A DNA stretch of 64,000 nt, from assembly GCF_014205295.1 (NCBI RefSeq), contig NZ_JACHNF010000001.1, positions 7,254,001-7,318,000 on the forward strand. Direction: 5' to 3'. This DNA is from Kribbella solani (lineage in GTDB: Bacteria > Actinomycetota > Actinomycetes > Propionibacteriales > Kribbellaceae). Of the stretch, positions 28,427 to 36,295 are shown piece after piece (within the stretch, counting starts at the first letter, position 1; every line of letters begins with the position of its first letter). The translations under genes and the position numbers were made by a program. The notes beneath the pieces were generated by a model. It worked only from the letters and a program-made list of their open reading frames with translations, did not search any database and was not told the DNA's origin.

Positions 28427-29773
28427 TCAGTGGTCCTCGGCGCCGACGAGTGCGGCCAGCATGCTTGGCGAAAGTCGGGGAGTCCCACCGTAGCGGCCCG
28501 TGAGATAACGCCGCGCTATGTTCGCGTCCGGGTGCTTCGGGAAGTCGGCGAGGCAGGTCAACTCGGTCGCGCCTTCGTAGGTCTTGTCCGTGAGCCAGAC
28601 CTGTTCGGGCTCCAACTTCACCTCACTCAGCGGCGACAGGACGTACGACTCGTGGCTGGTGAAGATGAGCTGCGCGCCCTGGGTGTTGACCAGTGGGTCA
28701 GTGAACGCCCCGAGTAGGACCTCAAGAAGGTGAGGATGCAGGCTGGCGTCGATCTCGTCGACGAGGAGCAGCCCTCCTGCACGCAGTGTCTCCAATGCCG
28801 GCACCGCGATGGCGAGCCACGCGATCGTTCCGTCGCTCTCGTCCTGGATCGAGAACTTGGGACATTCGTCAGCGCTGCCGCGATGGACGAAGACCATATG
28901 CCGGACCATTTGGGCGAGTTGGTCGTCATCCAGGTCGGCGGGCTCCACGTCTTCGTCTTCAGCCTTCTCGTCGGTCGCGTCGCTCGGTCGCGTCTCCTCT
29001 TCGCGCAGATCGCGCTGGAGCCGGCGGACGGCGCGGCGTACGTGCTCGGGGATGTTCCTCTCCTCGATGCTGACGTTCACAATGCCGATGTCCGCGACCT
29101 GCAAGAGTGCTTCGAGGTCGGTGAAGGTGATGTTCCCCTCGGCCAGCGAGTCCGCGATGCTCGACAGTCGTCCCTCGCGGTGGGAGTCCTTCACCAGAAC
29201 GTAGTCGAACCCGACGGCCAGATTGTGAGCCACGGAATACAGCGGCGTATCGCGCAGCAACAGCGCGCGGCTGAGCACCAACTCACGTCCGGTTACTTCG
29301 ATCCGTGCGCGCAGGCTTGGATGAAAGGTGATTGTGCTCGCGTCACGGTCCCGATCGAGCAGCGTGCGCCACCGTGAACGGGGGACGTCACGCAGCCACT
29401 CGCGTTTGATGCCGTCATGGTCGACCTCGAAGCCGTACAGGTGCCGGCGTCCCTCGTGGACGAAGTCGAGCTCGTACGTGCTGGATGACGTGCGAGCGGT
29501 CCCATCGAGCAAGAACGGTGCCCGATGCATGGACTTCGACGCCTGCCAGGCTGTGGCGGACAGGCTGATCGCCGCGAAGGCGTATCGAAGTGCATCCAGC
29601 AAGGCGGACTTGCCGGACGCGTTGCCGCCGAAGACCCCTGCCACTGGATATGTCACGGAGAGCCAATCGTGATCCTGGGGCCGGAGGGTGCGCAGCGACG
29701 GATGCGTGAGGTCGACCGTCACCTCGTCCCGGATGCTCTTGTGATTGCGCACCGTGAAGCTCAGCAGCGTCAT
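28427..29773 (-). CDS. AAA/ABC-type ATPase, RloA-like (OLD-family related)
   Basis: 448 residues. N-terminal FTVRNHKSIRDEVTVDL, Walker A FGGNASGKSALLDAL (Lys55), an ABC-like signature QDESDGTIAWLAI, Walker B GGLLLVDEIDASLHP and switch His in IFTSHESYVL: the AAA_15/AAA_21 pattern. A Glu/Asp-rich insert lies near residues 265-290. Such ATPases pair with RloB or DUF4435 nucleases in phage-defence cassettes (RloAB, PARIS). Here the ATPase seems intact but its RloB partner is cut short, so the system is probably inactive or altered. Transcribed in the same direction as the CHAT operon, 135 bases upstream; that gap holds no other gene. Confidence 0.85.
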   Translation of the reverse strand: MTLLSFTVRNHKSIRDEVTVDLTHPSLRTLRPQDHDWLSVTYPVAGVFGGNASGKSALLDALRYAFAAISLSATAWQASKSMHRAPFLLDGTARTSSSTYELDFVHEGRRHLYGFEVDHDGIKREWLRDVPRSRWRTLLDRDRDASTITFHPSLRARIEVTGRELVLSRALLLRDTPLYSVAHNLAVGFDYVLVKDSHREGRLSSIADSLAEGNITFTDLEALLQVADIGIVNVSIEERNIPEHVRRAVRRLQRDLREEETRPSDATDEKAEDEDVEPADLDDDQLAQMVRHMVFVHRGSADECPKFSIQDESDGTIAWLAIAVPALETLRAGGLLLVDEIDASLHPHLLEVLLGAFTDPLVNTQGAQLIFTSHESYVLSPLSEVKLEPEQVWLTDKTYEGATELTCLADFPKHPDANIARRYLTGRYGGTPRLSPSMLAALVGAEDH

Positions 29774-29908: not shown

Positions 29909-32767
29909 TCAGACGACGATGGTGGTTAGGGCTGCCCAGAGGAGTGGGGAGTTTTCTGGGTGGGGTTTGGTGCGCCAGGTGATTAGTTGGGTGCGTTGCC
30001 AGGTGTTTAGGTAGTGTGCGGGGTCGGGGTGGTCGTGGGCGGTGTCTACGGCGGTGATGGCCTCCGAGAGTGGGCGTGTTGTGGTGGGTACGCCGGCCAG
30101 GGTGTGGAAGGCATGGTTTGTAGGTAGGGGCCAGCGGGTCGCGGTGACCAGGTGGGCGCCGTTGTGGAGCATGGCTGTGGCGAGGCCGAATGATTCGGTG
30201 AAGCGTAGGTCGCCGCCGGTTTCGCAGCCGATCAGGGCTACTCGGGGTGGGGCGGGCCAGATGCGCGTACCGGGCTGACCGTCGCTGTGTAGGGGGAGTG
30301 TGCCGAGGAGGAGGTCCTTGGCGGACAGCGGGCGGTGGGTGCGGGTCAGATCGGTGAGGCCGGTGGTTTCTGGGCCGCAGGAGAGGTGCATGGCGCCGTC
30401 CTCGCTCTGGCCTCCTTCTACTGGTGCACCGGTTACGTGGCCGACATACAGGAGTCTGCGGGCGCCGCTGCGGAGTACGTCGCTTAGCCAGTCGCGGTTG
30501 AGGTCTGTGCGGCGGAACGCGTCCGGTGCGGTGGCGGTGTGCGGTTGGACGGCGCCGGTTGCTGCGTGACGCTGGACCAGGGCGAGTAGGTCCGGGTCGG
30601 AGCCGGGTGGACCTAGTACCGAGCCAAGCGGTGAGTCAGCTCGGAAGCCTGGGACGCGCGGATCAAGCACCAACACAACCGGCCAGTCCACAGTGGTGTT
30701 GCTTGGCTGGGTTTGTTGGCGGCGTAGGGAGGTTGGGGCTGTGGTTACTACGTCTGCCAGGTCCAGGAGGCGGGTGTCGGCGTCGTCCAGTGCCAGTAGC
30801 TCCCACGGGACCTGTGCGACTCGGGGCGATGGCTGGATGCGTACTAGTGGCCGGCCTGCACGTTCCAGTACGTGGCGTAGCTGTGCGGTTAGTCCGTCCG
30901 GCCAGAGCGCCTTGCCGAGCGTACGTGCGAGCTGCGCTTCGCCACGCTGGTCCGACAGCGCACCTGACGCGAAAGCACGGCGTACGCCATCAGCGCCTTC
31001 GCCCGTGCCAGGTAGTGCAGCGGCCAGCTCGCGTACTGCCGCATCGACTTCATCAGCAGGCCCGCGGCCAGTACCGAACCCAGTCGCGCCGCCGGCCCAC
31101 GTCCACGTCATAAACAGGTCACCAGCGTCAGCCAGCCGGATTTGTACTACCGGGCGGCTGGTGAGCTCGGAAGTGTTCCAGAACGGCACCTCCTGCTCGT
31201 CCACGATCGGCCGGCGGTAGCGGAACTCAGCCGCAGCTATGTACTCCTGAAGCGCAACCCGTTCCGCGGACATCCGTACCTTCGGCGGCGGCGCGACGCG
31301 GAGCCCGATCGACGCGGCAGCATCCGCAGCAACACCTCCGAGCGTCAGAGGCGAGCCGTACGTCTTCATCGCAGGCTCCGGGAAGACCGGTGCCGCAGCA
31401 GCAACTGCCGGCGGTGCGCCTAGTGCGAGCGCGGCGCCGGCGCACTGGTGTTCTACCAGTTCGAACAGTAGGCCCTGGTCCTCGCGGCGGACAGCCAGGC
31501 GGAAGACCAGCCGCATGGCGTCATTGGCCAGCTCAAGCCACTGGTTGCGGGCGTACGCGGTGACGAAGTCGTGGCGGGCAGCGGCCAGGGTCAGCGCAGC
31601 CGGGAGGGCCAGCGACAGCGCAGTGTCAACGGATGCGCGCTCGTGATCGCCGTGGTCTGTCTGGTTCAGGTTGTCTTCGAGAGTCCGCGCCAGCATCAGG
31701 TCGACCTGCGCGCACCGTTCATACAGCTCCTGCGCCTGGTACACGTCGCGCGCCTCCTGCGCCAGGCGCTGCAGCTCCTCGATGTCACCTCGCTCGTACG
31801 CGTGCTGAGCGGCCAGTAGCTTGCTGTCCGCGGCCGCGATCGATGCGCCGAGCCGTGCGAACCGGTCCAGGCTGGTAGTGATCAGTGCACGTGCGTTCGC
31901 AGTGTCGCCGCGTAGATCGGCGAGGTGGCTCCGTGCCTGTTCACAGGTTGCCAGGTCGCCGTACCGGCGCTGCTGTTCGAAGTACGTTGATGCCTGCGTG
32001 AACAGCTGCTCCGCTTCGTCGAGCTCACCGCGTTCCATCGCCACGTACGCCCGGTGTGCGAGCAGCGTTTGTACTTCACCGGTGTCGCGCAGTGTCTGGA
32101 AGCCCTGCTCTGCTTGGGCGAAGTAGTCCTCAGCCAGGTCATACCGCCCGGTAGCAGTGCAGATCGACCCGAGTGCGGTCTGCAGCCGGGGGATTGCCTC
32201 CACGGCAGTTGGCGGTGTGGTAGCGAGCACGAGGCTCGCATGCTCCTCCGCCTTACCCCACTCGCTGCGGTTGATCAGGAGAAGCACACGGTTCAGGCCG
32301 AGCTCGGCTGCACGCAGTCCGTCCGGGTCGGTGAACTCGGTCAGTACGGTTGCGGCCTGGTCGAGCCAGTCGAGTGCCTCGTCCAGATGGCCGGTAGTAC
32401 TGAGTACTGCGGATCTGGCCATCATCGTACGGAGCTGCAGCTCCAGCCACAGTTGCCGGCCGTGTGGTCCCATCGGTGCTTGCGCGACGCTGTCGAGCAG
32501 CGCATGCGATCGCGTACTGGTGTCGTCGGCGCCGGGCAGATCGGATGCCGAGAGGTGGACGCTGGTGAGGTCGGCCAGTAGGTGGGCTCGGAGGAACCGT
32601 ACGTCGGGTGAGTCCTCCAGCGATTCCGCCAGGACAAGCAGTTCGGCGTACAGGTCGTACGCGGCGGCGAACTCGGCTGCCAGGTGATGCTCGTGCGCGC
32701 GGGCGAACCCTGCGTCGAACGGGTCGCCGTACAGCTGGAGGTGCTGCGGGTTCGTACTGTCCGTCAT
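29909..32767 (-). CDS. TPR-CHAT caspase-like protein
   Basis: 952 residues. Residues ~30-420 are tandem helical hairpins of TPR type (e.g. RYDLAEDYFAQAEQGFQTLRDT, ELDEAEQLFTQASTYFEQ). A middle beta/alpha segment (520-700) leads to a C-terminal CHAT peptidase domain with QVPWELL (substrate-pocket lead-in), His777 in RLLYVGHVTG and Cys848 in ALIGCETGGD, both intact. CHAT proteases are caspase relatives; TPR-CHAT proteins act in phage-triggered cell suicide (as in the Csx29/Craspase and gasdermin systems). Last gene of a three-gene operon: it starts 3 bases after the preceding stop. No gasdermin gene or CRISPR locus is in view, so its trigger and target are unknown. Confidence 0.85.
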   Translation of the reverse strand: MTDSTNPQHLQLYGDPFDAGFARAHEHHLAAEFAAAYDLYAELLVLAESLEDSPDVRFLRAHLLADLTSVHLSASDLPGADDTSTRSHALLDSVAQAPMGPHGRQLWLELQLRTMMARSAVLSTTGHLDEALDWLDQAATVLTEFTDPDGLRAAELGLNRVLLLINRSEWGKAEEHASLVLATTPPTAVEAIPRLQTALGSICTATGRYDLAEDYFAQAEQGFQTLRDTGEVQTLLAHRAYVAMERGELDEAEQLFTQASTYFEQQRRYGDLATCEQARSHLADLRGDTANARALITTSLDRFARLGASIAAADSKLLAAQHAYERGDIEELQRLAQEARDVYQAQELYERCAQVDLMLARTLEDNLNQTDHGDHERASVDTALSLALPAALTLAAARHDFVTAYARNQWLELANDAMRLVFRLAVRREDQGLLFELVEHQCAGAALALGAPPAVAAAAPVFPEPAMKTYGSPLTLGGVAADAAASIGLRVAPPPKVRMSAERVALQEYIAAAEFRYRRPIVDEQEVPFWNTSELTSRPVVQIRLADAGDLFMTWTWAGGATGFGTGRGPADEVDAAVRELAAALPGTGEGADGVRRAFASGALSDQRGEAQLARTLGKALWPDGLTAQLRHVLERAGRPLVRIQPSPRVAQVPWELLALDDADTRLLDLADVVTTAPTSLRRQQTQPSNTTVDWPVVLVLDPRVPGFRADSPLGSVLGPPGSDPDLLALVQRHAATGAVQPHTATAPDAFRRTDLNRDWLSDVLRSGARRLLYVGHVTGAPVEGGQSEDGAMHLSCGPETTGLTDLTRTHRPLSAKDLLLGTLPLHSDGQPGTRIWPAPPRVALIGCETGGDLRFTESFGLATAMLHNGAHLVTATRWPLPTNHAFHTLAGVPTTTRPLSEAITAVDTAHDHPDPAHYLNTWQRTQLITWRTKPHPENSPLLWAALTTIVV

Positions 32768-32770
32768 CCG

Positions 32771-33943
32771 TCAGTAGTCCCCATCATCGCCGGCCCCGGC
32801 AAGGACCTCCGCGAGTAGCAGCTGACCAGCTGGTTCGGTGCGCATGCGCTCGCGGGCAAGGTTGCGGATCGCGGCCCGGTCGGCGCTGGCGTCGGACGCG
32901 GCGCCGGGATCGAACCCCGGCAACAGCACCTCCACACCAATCAACAGCTGTTCCGGAGATGGCAGGGTGATGTCCGCTTGACCGGTCCAGCTGTCGTCCT
33001 GCCTGGTGAGGCGTATCCGGGGCGGTTCGGCCTGGTCGGGCCGGCTTCCGGCGGGTAGGCGGACCTCTGCGGCGAGTGGCGTACCAGTCGGGGCCGACGG
33101 ATGCGCGACGACCTCGATGTCCAGTTGGCGGCGGGCGCCCTGGGCGCGGAGGGTCCAGGAGATCGCCTCCTCGGCGGCATCGACGAAACCGGGTGGGTAC
33201 CGCCGCCAGTCGTTGATTCCATTGCCTCGGGCAATCAACCGGCCGGTGCCGGCGTGCTGAGCACCAGCCGCGAGGGCGTAACCGCTCTTCCTTGCGATCA
33301 GTTCATTTGCCGAGGTGATGTCTGATTCCTGGGCCAGGGAAGCATGCAGCGTACGCAGCGCCGGACTGTCTAGGCCGGCGCAATCAGCGGCGTCGTCGAT
33401 CAGCCGCAGAACCTCAACCAGCTGCCGCGCCACTGGTGATGCGATCGAGGGACTGTGCAGCCAATGGAGCAAGGGAACCAGTGCGGACTGGTGTTCTTCG
33501 ATCAGCTCGGGTATGCAGTCGTCGTCATCGAACAGTTGCTGGCACTGGTGGGTGAGTGCGGCAGTCTCCAGGGCGAGTACGGCTGGGTTGAGGTCCGGGA
33601 TGCCGTCCAGGTACGACGCCGGCCACCAGCGGGCGGCCCAGTGCGCGAAGGCGAGCCGCCCCGCCGTACGCGCAAGAGCCGACACCTCCGCGACAACAGC
33701 AACCTCTGCAGTGGCCACCTGCTCGTTGTACAGCGCCCATAGCCACTGCTGTGCGCGTACGGGGTCGTGGATGTGAGCGGTTGGCAGCCTGGGGCCGTCG
33801 AGGACTGACCAGGTGAGTACCGCGCCGGCGACGTCGAGTACTGCGTGGGTGAAGTCCGCGGTACCTGTGGTGGGGGCGGCGGCCGGGACCACGCTGATGG
33901 TGCCGTCGGGCGACTGGGTGGTGTGGACGGTTGTCGCAGGCAT
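32771..33943 (-). CDS. CHAT-operon protein of unknown function (middle gene)
   Basis: 390 residues from ATG 33943, sharing one base with the upstream stop (TGATG). The N-terminal two thirds are mostly helical and rich in Ala/Leu/Trp (RLAFAHWAARWWPASYLDG, PVLALETAALTHQ), with an acidic patch FDDDDCIPELIEE; the last third (about 290-370) looks beta-rich (LDIEVVAHPSAPTGTPLAAEVRLP, PPRIRLTRQDDSWTGQADITLP). I recognise no named domain, signal peptide or membrane span. Being coupled to the CHAT gene, it may be its sensor, inhibitor or substrate. Confidence 0.7.
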   Translation of the reverse strand: MPATTVHTTQSPDGTISVVPAAAPTTGTADFTHAVLDVAGAVLTWSVLDGPRLPTAHIHDPVRAQQWLWALYNEQVATAEVAVVAEVSALARTAGRLAFAHWAARWWPASYLDGIPDLNPAVLALETAALTHQCQQLFDDDDCIPELIEEHQSALVPLLHWLHSPSIASPVARQLVEVLRLIDDAADCAGLDSPALRTLHASLAQESDITSANELIARKSGYALAAGAQHAGTGRLIARGNGINDWRRYPPGFVDAAEEAISWTLRAQGARRQLDIEVVAHPSAPTGTPLAAEVRLPAGSRPDQAEPPRIRLTRQDDSWTGQADITLPSPEQLLIGVEVLLPGFDPGAASDASADRAAIRNLARERMRTEPAGQLLLAEVLAGAGDDGDY

Positions 33944-35280
33944 CAGGCGCTCCTCGACTCGGCCGGGTCCGCTGTGGTGGCTGACAGGGTCCGCAGGGCG
34001 GCGCGGACGCGTGCGCGGTGGTCCATCATCACGGAGCGAGCCACGCCGTCGAGTACCGTCCACGCTGCCGGCAAGTCCGGGAGGGGTGCGTCGCGGACGT
34101 CGCGGCCGTGGAGGCGTACCCAGAGTCGGCGCATGTACGCGCTCCAAGGTGTACGTAGGTCCTGGGCGAGTGAGTTCAGTACACCGCCGTCGGGGTCGGG
34201 GGAGACCGTCATGCGGCGCGCACGGAGTACGGAGGCCTCTCTTCGCCAGCGGCTGTTGACGGTCCGGTGCGCTGCAGTAAGGCCTAGCCCGCCGCCGACG
34301 CCCAGTGGGTCCAGACCGCTGGCCAGGCGGGCGCCGAGCGTGGCAGCGACTCGGAGGGTTTCGTTGGACAGACCTAGTGGGGAGCTGCTGCGGCTGACCT
34401 CTCGGCTGACGAGGGTTGGCACCGGTGGGAGCTCGTCGCGGCGGGTCGACGACTGGAGTACGACGAACAGGCGGTCGAACAGGGTGCGGTCGAGTGGTGC
34501 GGGGAGGGTGGCTGTCGAGGCACTGCGACCGACCTCGGGGCGTACGGGAACCGGATGCACTGTCAGGCCCAGATGCGTCGGTAGCTCATCAGAGCCCCAA
34601 ACCCCGCCCGCCTGTGTCCACACCAGCTGACCGAACAGTTCACCGTGTCCAGCCGCGACCATCGCCGCGTACGCCACTGAGTCGTCCAGAGAGTCCAGTA
34701 CCTCATCCGCCAGCGCAATAACCGCAGCAGCATCAGGTTGCGGCAGAAGAGCGCGGGCAGCCCAGGACTCGATCAGGGCCGCGTCCAGTTGTGTGCGGTG
34801 TTCGGTACTGGTCAGGTGGTTGCGGAGGGCTTCCACTGTGCGGTCCGCGGTGTCGTCGGCGATCTCCTGGACAACGGTGCGAGCGATGGTCTCCGCATCG
34901 GATGGCGGTGCACCGTGTTCGGTTGCCAGCTCGTAGCACCGCTGGAAGTACAGGTCCTGTGGGTTACCAGCTACGACACCCAGCGCCCGGCGGGCCTTCT
35001 TCAACAGGGTGAACCAGTGCGCCGTCGCAGCGAGGCAGCCCGCCGACTCCACAATCAGAGCGTTGAGACGCGCGGCCTGGTCCGGTGCAAGGAAGTCTGT
35101 CGCGAGCTCCGGATGCAGCGCGGGCCGGACGATCAGCGGCAGCACGATCAGCTTCACCGTGCGGGTCAGTGGAGCGCCACCAGGACCGCTCAGTGACTCC
35201 AGTCCGGGCCCGAGGTCACGCCAGGCGTGGTCGATGACCATGGCACGCGGGCGGCCCGCACCGGTCGCCTGGTTCGGCAT
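33943..35280 (-). CDS. CHAT-operon protein of unknown function (first gene)
   Basis: 445 residues from ATG 35280 (MPNQATGAGRPRAMVIDHAW...). Largely helical; a Gly-rich stretch (LDPLGVGGGLGLTAAHR, near residue 350) precedes a basic segment (SRWRREASVLRARR). The C-terminus is Arg/Ala-rich. No known catalytic motif, membrane span or DNA-binding helix stands out. Its stop overlaps the next ATG, so it is the leader of the CHAT operon. The promoter lies in the 109-base region shared with the divergent gene at 35390. The frame extends to 35460 but that would run into the divergent gene. Confidence 0.7.
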   Translation of the reverse strand: MPNQATGAGRPRAMVIDHAWRDLGPGLESLSGPGGAPLTRTVKLIVLPLIVRPALHPELATDFLAPDQAARLNALIVESAGCLAATAHWFTLLKKARRALGVVAGNPQDLYFQRCYELATEHGAPPSDAETIARTVVQEIADDTADRTVEALRNHLTSTEHRTQLDAALIESWAARALLPQPDAAAVIALADEVLDSLDDSVAYAAMVAAGHGELFGQLVWTQAGGVWGSDELPTHLGLTVHPVPVRPEVGRSASTATLPAPLDRTLFDRLFVVLQSSTRRDELPPVPTLVSREVSRSSSPLGLSNETLRVAATLGARLASGLDPLGVGGGLGLTAAHRTVNSRWRREASVLRARRMTVSPDPDGGVLNSLAQDLRTPWSAYMRRLWVRLHGRDVRDAPLPDLPAAWTVLDGVARSVMMDHRARVRAALRTLSATTADPAESRSA

Positions 35281-35389
35281 ACCGGGAGCGTACGTGGTCC
35301 CCGTACGCGCGGGCGAACCTGGGATCGGTAGACGCCACGTGCCGCCTAGCGTCCTGCACGTACACCGAGTAGCAGCACTAGGAGAAGAC

Positions 35390-35809
35390 ATGGGACTCTT
35401 CGGACGCAAGAACCGTGAGCAGCAGGCCGCCGAGATCATCAGCAAGGTGGCGAGCGGCAAGGGGTTCTACGGTCGCACCACTCGCGCGTTCCTTGGTCAG
35501 GAGGACTTCGCCAAGGTCCAGCAGTCGATCGGGGCGTACCAGTCCGGTCATGACGTACGCCAGTTGCTCGCGGCGGGCGTACCGACCGTACCGGCCATCG
35601 TGGTGTCGGTTGCTGACACCGGTCGGCTCATCAACTACGACCCGGTTGTCGACCTGGTACTGCAGTTGTCCGGTACGGATGCCGCAGTAACGCTCCGGAC
35701 GATCGTCTCGAAGCTGCGCATCCCGCGCACCGGTGACCAGGTACACCTGATCGCGGACCCCAGCACACCGGGTGCGTACCTCTACGCCGGCGACGGCGTG
35801 AACCCGTGA
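35390..35809 (+). CDS. Small soluble protein with beta module, unknown function
   Basis: 139 residues from ATG 35390 with GGAG 6 bases before it. Residues 1-60 form a basic helical part (MGLFGRKNREQQAAEIISKV...), and residues 64-135 a beta module (VPAIVVSVADTGRLINYDPVV, ..LQLSGTDAAV, RTGDQVHLIADPS). The same kind of module appears in the next gene. Divergent from the CHAT operon. Not assigned to a named family. Confidence 0.65.
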   Translation: MGLFGRKNREQQAAEIISKVASGKGFYGRTTRAFLGQEDFAKVQQSIGAYQSGHDVRQLLAAGVPTVPAIVVSVADTGRLINYDPVVDLVLQLSGTDAAVTLRTIVSKLRIPRTGDQVHLIADPSTPGAYLYAGDGVNP

Positions 35810-35839: not shown

Positions 35840-36295
35840 ATGGCCGGGGACGAGATCCACTGGGTGCTGGTGTCGCGGATCACCGGGGTGGGCGCGGTCG
35901 CTGTGTACGGGAGCGCGGGCACGATGATCTTGTCCGGACCGGTGATGCTGGGCGCCACCTTGCTGGCCGGGGCGGACATGCTGGTGATGGGGATCATCTT
36001 CACGGTCCTGATGCTTCCGCTCGGCCTCGCGCTCTGGGCGAACACCTCGGTCGAACGGGAGCAGAACCGGCAGCTTGACGCGTTCGGTGTGCCGGCGATC
36101 GCGGAAGTCACCGGGCTGGGCGAATGGGACGACGGCGAATCAGCCGGGATCACCCTCGAACTCCGGGTCAGCGGCACCGGCTTCCCAGCCTTCGAGACAA
36201 CCTGGAAGCGTTCAGCGTCTCAGGACCTGAGAGTGGGCACGCGGGTCACCGCCGTCGTCGAGCCGGGCATCGGCCTCTGCCGCGTCGACCTGTGA
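35840..36295 (+). CDS. Membrane protein with the same beta module
   Basis: 151 residues: two hydrophobic helices (about 12-40 and 45-68: TMILSGPVMLGATLLAGADM; MGIIFTVLMLPLGLALWA) and a C-terminal cytosolic beta module (VPAIAEVTGLGEWDDGES, ..ELRVSGTGFPAF, RVGTRVTAVVEPG) that lines up with the module in the preceding gene. Ends 81 bases before the convergent WYL gene stop. Function unknown; probably cotranscribed with 35390-35809. Confidence 0.65.
   Translation: MAGDEIHWVLVSRITGVGAVAVYGSAGTMILSGPVMLGATLLAGADMLVMGIIFTVLMLPLGLALWANTSVEREQNRQLDAFGVPAIAEVTGLGEWDDGESAGITLELRVSGTGFPAFETTWKRSASQDLRVGTRVTAVVEPGIGLCRVDL

Follow-up and report, generated by a model that had tools for sequence, protein, structure and literature searches.

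A conserved actinobacterial TPR-CHAT gene unit and a promoter-like element linked to cell-envelope genes

Bacterial CHAT proteases have so far been studied as executioners or CRISPR effectors. A trio of genes in Kribbella solani, encoding a caspase-like TPR-CHAT protein and two proteins of no known family (A and B), raises the question of what such a protease does with these two partners. An earlier note on this DNA had proposed a candidate defence system. We therefore ask here whether the trio is a conserved system, whether its setting is one of defence, and what else travels with it.

The trio and its protein families

In the window, the 64,000-nucleotide stretch of the genome that was analysed, gene A (33943..35280, minus strand, 445 aa) and gene B (32771..33943, minus strand, 390 aa) overlap by one base (TGATG), and gene C (29909..32767, minus strand, 952 aa) starts after a 3-base gap from B. 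The one-base overlap of A and B also occurs in 17 of 21 Streptomyces loci. All coordinates that the earlier note had given for this coupled trio proved correct. The unit additionally includes two divergent genes, U1 and U2, and an element between them and A, which were absent from that note.

Gene C encodes a predicted TPR-CHAT cysteine protease, with the TPR part at about residues 1-531 (TPRs at residues 195-264) and CHAT at about residues 537-950. CHAT was not among the matches when the window protein was run directly through hmmscan, and PADLOC returned a weak TPR match only. The CHAT domain of the window scored 42 bits against PF12770 at a cut-off of 24, and a Mycobacterium CHAT orthologue passed clearly with 42.8 bits. 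The putative catalytic residues His777 (YVGH, codon at 30437..30439, minus strand) and Cys848 (GCETGG, codon at 30224..30226, minus strand; both coordinates computed from the start codon) had been described as intact, and they are indeed invariant in all 49 CHAT domains compared. With the profile cut-off passed and the His-Cys dyad in place, the gene C product is, by sequence, a member of the CHAT family.

As the earlier note had said, A and B belong to no recognisable family: they matched nothing in Pfam or PADLOC and a single NCBIfam model at chance level. Family searches with their close relatives returned scattered weak matches only, and no solved structure matched A or B. Profile searches, which the earlier note had suggested, revealed no hidden domain; the models built from close relatives were poor (mean pLDDT 44 for A and 56 for B), and Foldseek of the B model gave nothing significant, with weak Ig-like hints only. 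No DNA-binding domain was detected in A or B. The products of A, B and C are all soluble by hydropathy, and neither A nor B has a hydrophobic segment above the membrane threshold used. Nor did A or B resemble a sigma factor: Pfam searches with 22 members of A and 23 of B gave no match to sigma region 2 or 4 at E values up to 10, and profile comparison with a shallow sigma-factor alignment was negative as well.

A contains many invariant Arg and Trp residues, 14 Arg and one Lys being among its roughly 70 near-invariant positions, and is predicted to be all-helical by a low-confidence model. B is the fastest-evolving protein of the system. It comprises a mixed N-terminal half, a variable linker, a beta-strand C-terminal domain and a conserved acidic-aromatic tail. 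The acidic patch noted previously can be located at FDDDDC, and the beta-rich C-terminal half is visible in the low-confidence model. The tail, DGDY in the window and FLAEI.AA...[DE].[DE][YF] at the extreme C-terminus across loci, is conserved although the remainder of B diverges, with Tyr or Phe as the final residue in 44 of 48 complete sequences. It is missing in group g44 and in locus L055.

Inheritance, mobility and the defence question

We compared 49 complete loci from Streptomyces, Nocardia, Mycobacterium and others: the window, 21 loci from Streptomyces, 24 selected solely by the presence of A, and 3 on plasmids; the genus names of the compared genomes are inferred. A, B, TPR and CHAT were contiguous in every one of them. 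The incomplete loci were explained by contig ends (L003, L013 and L078), a remnant (L076) and a rearrangement (L023). TPR and CHAT are often separate genes, as in genus g11, L023-L025, L057, L071, L075 and L105. The gene order is either A-B-TPR-CHAT or, in genus g11, TPR-CHAT-A-B; we take g11 to be Mycobacterium because of its uvrA and bifunctional LysX neighbours.

A profile of A detected the gene in 34 of 395 genomes of the class, representing 7 of 138 genera. Among 149 Mycobacterium genomes, A was found in 97 and CHAT in 94, and no genome had CHAT without A; one of the three A-only genomes is 84% complete, and the other two hold short A fragments. Such fragments occur in Mycobacterium G522 and G545. 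Of 199 Streptomyces genomes, 16 carry A. For A, B and CHAT, pairwise distances are correlated (r of 0.975-0.985), as expected of co-inheritance, yet shared ancestry alone inflates such values. The system idea passes the test by which the earlier note had proposed to judge it, namely whether the genes are found together in other genomes, because they are co-located almost without exception. Judged by gene content and order, whose regularity goes far beyond chance, the trio is a genuine conserved system, passed on in actinobacteria as a single unit.

Individual loci showed departures from this arrangement. In L023, about 9 kb separates B from TPR, and a small accessory gene is divergent from TPR, which shows that the A-B and TPR-CHAT blocks can part. 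L076 (9707-9856) retains a stop-interrupted remnant of A beside glnA and lipA, at a site where g44 relatives hold the whole quartet, which points to decay of the system in some lineages.

The host genome (7.85 Mb) is the only one of 38 genomes of its genus to contain A, the 37 same-genus neighbours being without it. The nearest relatives of the window copy are from Streptomyces (60-77% identical), and trees group it with Streptomyces. The unit lies in about 8.2 kb between ychF and a WYL regulator gene, comprising an AbiLi-like ATPase gene, the trio, U1 and U2. In eight relatives, the ychF-WYL stretch is rearranged, nearly empty or occupied by other genes. As this interval differs among relatives, the unit was acquired by insertion into a variable site. 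Beside ychF in another genome of the genus (L102, 4936-5988), we observed a gene for a 350-aa protein that is Abi (AbiD/AbiF)-like by eye, which suggests that the site accepts varied cargo. The host genome also contains a second CHAT gene (C1:1309413-1310114, 99 bits, open frame of 958 aa), which has no A partner since the genome has one copy of A only. Elsewhere, A occurs on Streptomyces megaplasmids of 1.2-1.6 Mb (NZ_CP108509.1, NZ_CP109328.1 and three more), some of them typed mobilizable, and on NZ_LN868939.1 from Nocardia farcinica, a 2.66 Mb record filed as a plasmid.

The defence setting had been argued from the neighbouring ATPase. This gene (28427..29773, minus strand) does exist and is AAA_21/AbiLi-like, but it is not conserved with the trio, being found in 0 of 24 Streptomyces loci; it shares the insertion and lies outside the conserved system. 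The expected enrichment near defence genes was not observed either, as PADLOC hits were no more frequent among 133 neighbour proteins from 24 loci than among 130 control proteins. The matches listed for neighbours were to kinase-type and AAA-type models, with two members each, and those for controls to DruA, DpdE, methyltransferase and other models. A and B matched no known anti-phage system in PADLOC, the core genes of such a system were not found, and neither phages nor IMG/VR contained a copy of A. Many Mycobacterium copies lie beside uvrA and lysX. The usual CHAT partners are absent, in line with the earlier observation, there being no family match to Csx30 or gasdermin. Thus, of the candidate defence system, the conserved trio stands, whereas the defence setting gains no support, given the lack of PADLOC enrichment and of phage copies and the presence of an element tied to envelope genes. 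Nothing that we found favours a defence role over an envelope one.

A promoter-like element and its envelope genes

The element between A and U1 consists of TGGGATCGGTAG, 14 bp and CTAGCGTCC (window 35320-35354). Box 1, CGAACCTGGGATCGGTAG (35314..35331, plus strand), is -35-like and reads towards U1, and box 2, CTAGCGTCC (35346..35354, plus strand), is -10-like and follows 14 bp after box 1; read towards U1, the whole is GAACCTGGGATCGGTAG, 14 bp, CTAGCGTCC (window 35315-35354). Exact short words are common to the window and the 21 Streptomyces loci in the region between U1 and A, and a strict scan found the core GATCCCAGGTTC in 21 of these 22. In all 21 Streptomyces loci that cover this region, as in the window and in Nocardia-like loci, the element precedes the divergent envelope genes. 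L025 also has it, further upstream of A, and in L024 and L075 the gene cl4, relocated to the opposite end of the locus, has its own copy of box 1. Close forms occur in Mycobacterium upstream of LpqH in 13 of 13 loci, upstream of A and reading away from it in 12 of 13, and before OB-domain genes. Group g44 contained none, nor did 20 control regions (200 kb) or 120 kb from the window's relatives, and an Rfam search returned nothing. The element is promoter-like and conserved from Streptomyces to Mycobacterium.

U1 (35390..35809, plus strand) encodes 139 aa with a DUF3592-like/OB-like beta domain and is present in the window and in every Streptomyces locus reaching far enough. U2 (35840..36295, plus strand), the second divergent gene, encodes an accessory membrane protein of 151 aa. 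Mycobacterium, Nocardia-like and other loci have, opposite A, membrane proteins with an OB-like domain (OBdom) that matches DUF3592 weakly. When 804 neighbour proteins were searched, U1 members ranked near the top, below the family itself (E of 0.01 to 0.8), and U1 is likely related to OBdom. U2, the cl4 product and most OBdom proteins are membrane proteins by hydropathy. An LpqH-like lipoprotein gene (19-kDa-antigen-like, PF05481) heads the TPR-CHAT unit in all 13 Mycobacterium loci, and in L057, L071 and L104 such a gene is divergent from A. Group g44, where the B tail is missing, has neither divergent genes nor an element at the expected place.

We counted the 13-mer CTACCGAWCCCAA in 17 Mycobacterium genomes, 12 with and 5 without A. 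The A-positive genomes had 2-9 sites each (62 in total), two of each genome's sites being intrinsic to the locus, and the five A-negative genomes had 0, 1, 0, 1 and 0; a reversed-pattern control gave 0 in all 17. The difference in sites per genome is supported by a Mann-Whitney p of 0.0008, or 0.025 for the extra sites alone. Even though the search used box 1 only, a second box, T-G-T-A-C-T, emerged 14 bp after GGTAG at the 38 extra sites (T 29/38, A 27/38, C 30/38 and T 35/38), and the two sites in A-negative genomes had no convincing second box. A gene starts within tens of bases downstream of the extra sites in the same direction, several ATGs lying 26-27 bases after GGTAG, as in leaderless transcripts.

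The downstream genes include those for small secreted proteins, a membrane family, lipoproteins and another OB-domain-like membrane protein, and most of the encoded proteins have no Pfam family. A signal-peptide-like, lipobox or membrane segment was present in 33 of 34 well-called downstream proteins, against 52 of 155 for the other genes of the same regions (Fisher p of 1e-12); with four poor calls included, 34 of 38 were envelope-like (p of 2e-10). Genes were called by a GC3 rule and envelope features by simple hydropathy rather than a trained predictor. Among these proteins (L166-L202) are a small secreted family with WCPG...WD...CH motifs and a membrane family of 84-102 aa starting with MNIVP..IQEQINRVDRQ. 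Several unlinked genes thus follow a shared element in the genomes that carry the system, in contrast to the five that lack it, as expected of a dedicated regulon. This wide set of putative targets was seen in Mycobacterium, and the window's own genome yielded only one exact element.

A regulatory reading, its rivals and known systems

Since element and system co-occur and the targets are envelope or secreted proteins, the most parsimonious view is that the factor on which the element depends belongs to the system. We propose, at a probability of roughly 0.52, that A, B and TPR-CHAT form a proteolysis-based regulatory system controlling cell-envelope genes through its own promoter-like element. 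An envelope-side signal would reach the TPR arm via the divergent membrane or lipoprotein genes, and CHAT would cleave an inhibitor or adaptor, most plausibly B, to switch the regulon. A or B would recognise the element, or the polymerase at the element. A is the better candidate for this factor, as it has 14 Arg and one Lys near-invariant and an all-helical prediction, from a poor model. The fast evolution, variable linkers and conserved tail of B would suit a docked adaptor or a cleaved switch, and the TPRs might bind this tail in the manner of a carboxylate clamp. In Mycobacterium, the element before the LpqH-TPR-CHAT unit would give feedback. The earlier proposal of A and B as protease partners, whether sensor, inhibitor or substrate, stands, with the particular roles assigned provisionally as above. 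By analogy, the system may work in a sigma-factor-like manner under proteolytic control. We can offer only tentatively, at less than even odds, the further idea that A, alone or with B, belongs to a hitherto unrecognised type of protein that initiates transcription or reads DNA and has a promoter class to itself (GGGATCGGTAG, 14 bp and a -10-like box), and that it is switched by the caspase-like TPR-CHAT. Regulated proteolysis by a bacterial caspase relative would then serve actinobacteria as a means of controlling envelope genes.

The same element could be read by an unlinked sigma factor or activator, making the system one target rather than the master, and A-B-TPR-CHAT an envelope-stress effector. 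The element directly precedes the Mycobacterium LpqH-TPR-CHAT unit, so TPR-CHAT can be a target, and the two-box spacing and apparently leaderless starts resemble a sigma-factor promoter. However, the element is almost absent without the system and arrived with it in the window's genome; as the element tracks the system, an unlinked reader would need to follow the system in each loss and gain, and we consider this account unlikely.

Abortive infection, in which a triggered TPR-CHAT would cleave A or B and growth would stop, is less probable still in our estimate. It would fit the RNA-activated TPR-CHAT protease Csx29 of a CRISPR system (PMC10028731, PMC11106740), the patchy distribution (16 of 199 Streptomyces genomes, 1 of 38 in the window's genus) and the insertion with an AbiLi-like ATPase at a variable site. 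Its difficulty is that neighbours show no defence enrichment, that phages and IMG/VR lack the system, and that it resides in 65% of sampled Mycobacterium species, often between uvrA and lysX, with a conserved link to envelope genes and their element. A further rival is suicide triggered by contact or envelope damage, with the element-driven proteins as an allorecognition or damage device and CHAT executing death. A caspase-like executioner with membrane and secreted accessory proteins would be apt for such a device, but the secreted proteins are numerous and mostly unlinked to the locus, and we hold it to be very improbable. As far as the genomic comparisons indicate, the function of the system is thus probably to regulate the cell envelope and not to kill cells infected by phage.

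If the regulatory reading is true, a CHAT protease governs the expression of surface and secreted proteins in roughly two thirds of sampled Mycobacterium species, through a circuit with two protein families and a promoter class named by no library searched. LpqH-like lipoproteins are a protein group known as immune antigens, and because the element-driven genes include them, their switch matters to mycobacterial biology. Our literature search, with subscription papers mostly outside its scope, found no account of the system or the element.

In CHAT-gasdermin systems, a CHAT protease is encoded beside its possible substrate, as may be the case here; in contrast, no gasdermin family match was found in our system, and A and B have no membrane-threshold hydrophobic segment. 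Csx29, a TPR-CHAT protein, is the RNA-activated protease of type III-E CRISPR, known as Craspase (PMC10028731, PMC11106740). Both systems have TPR and a CHAT cysteine protease, fused in Csx29, together with partner proteins and, as the presumed output here, proteolysis. Unlike Craspase, our system has no visible Cas7-11, Csx30 or CRISPR partner, A and B are unrelated by family search, TPR and CHAT are often separate genes, and an envelope element is linked. No other gene was co-conserved across clades that could be a Cas7-11/Csx30-type partner. The CATRA ternary conflict systems are caspase-dependent (Burroughs and Aravind 2020, as described in PMC8195603) and resemble ours as actinobacterial multi-gene systems with a caspase-like protease and unknown partners. 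We rejected CATRA membership, as hhalign probabilities were below 1% against A, B, TPR and CHAT and the genome contained no CATRA-N. Some sigma factors are controlled by regulated proteolysis of an anti-sigma factor. A and B differ from these in having no detectable sigma or anti-sigma domain, and the protease is a CHAT protease rather than a membrane protease. If the regulatory reading holds, the two would nevertheless share their logic, with an envelope signal, a protease and a -35/-10 promoter.
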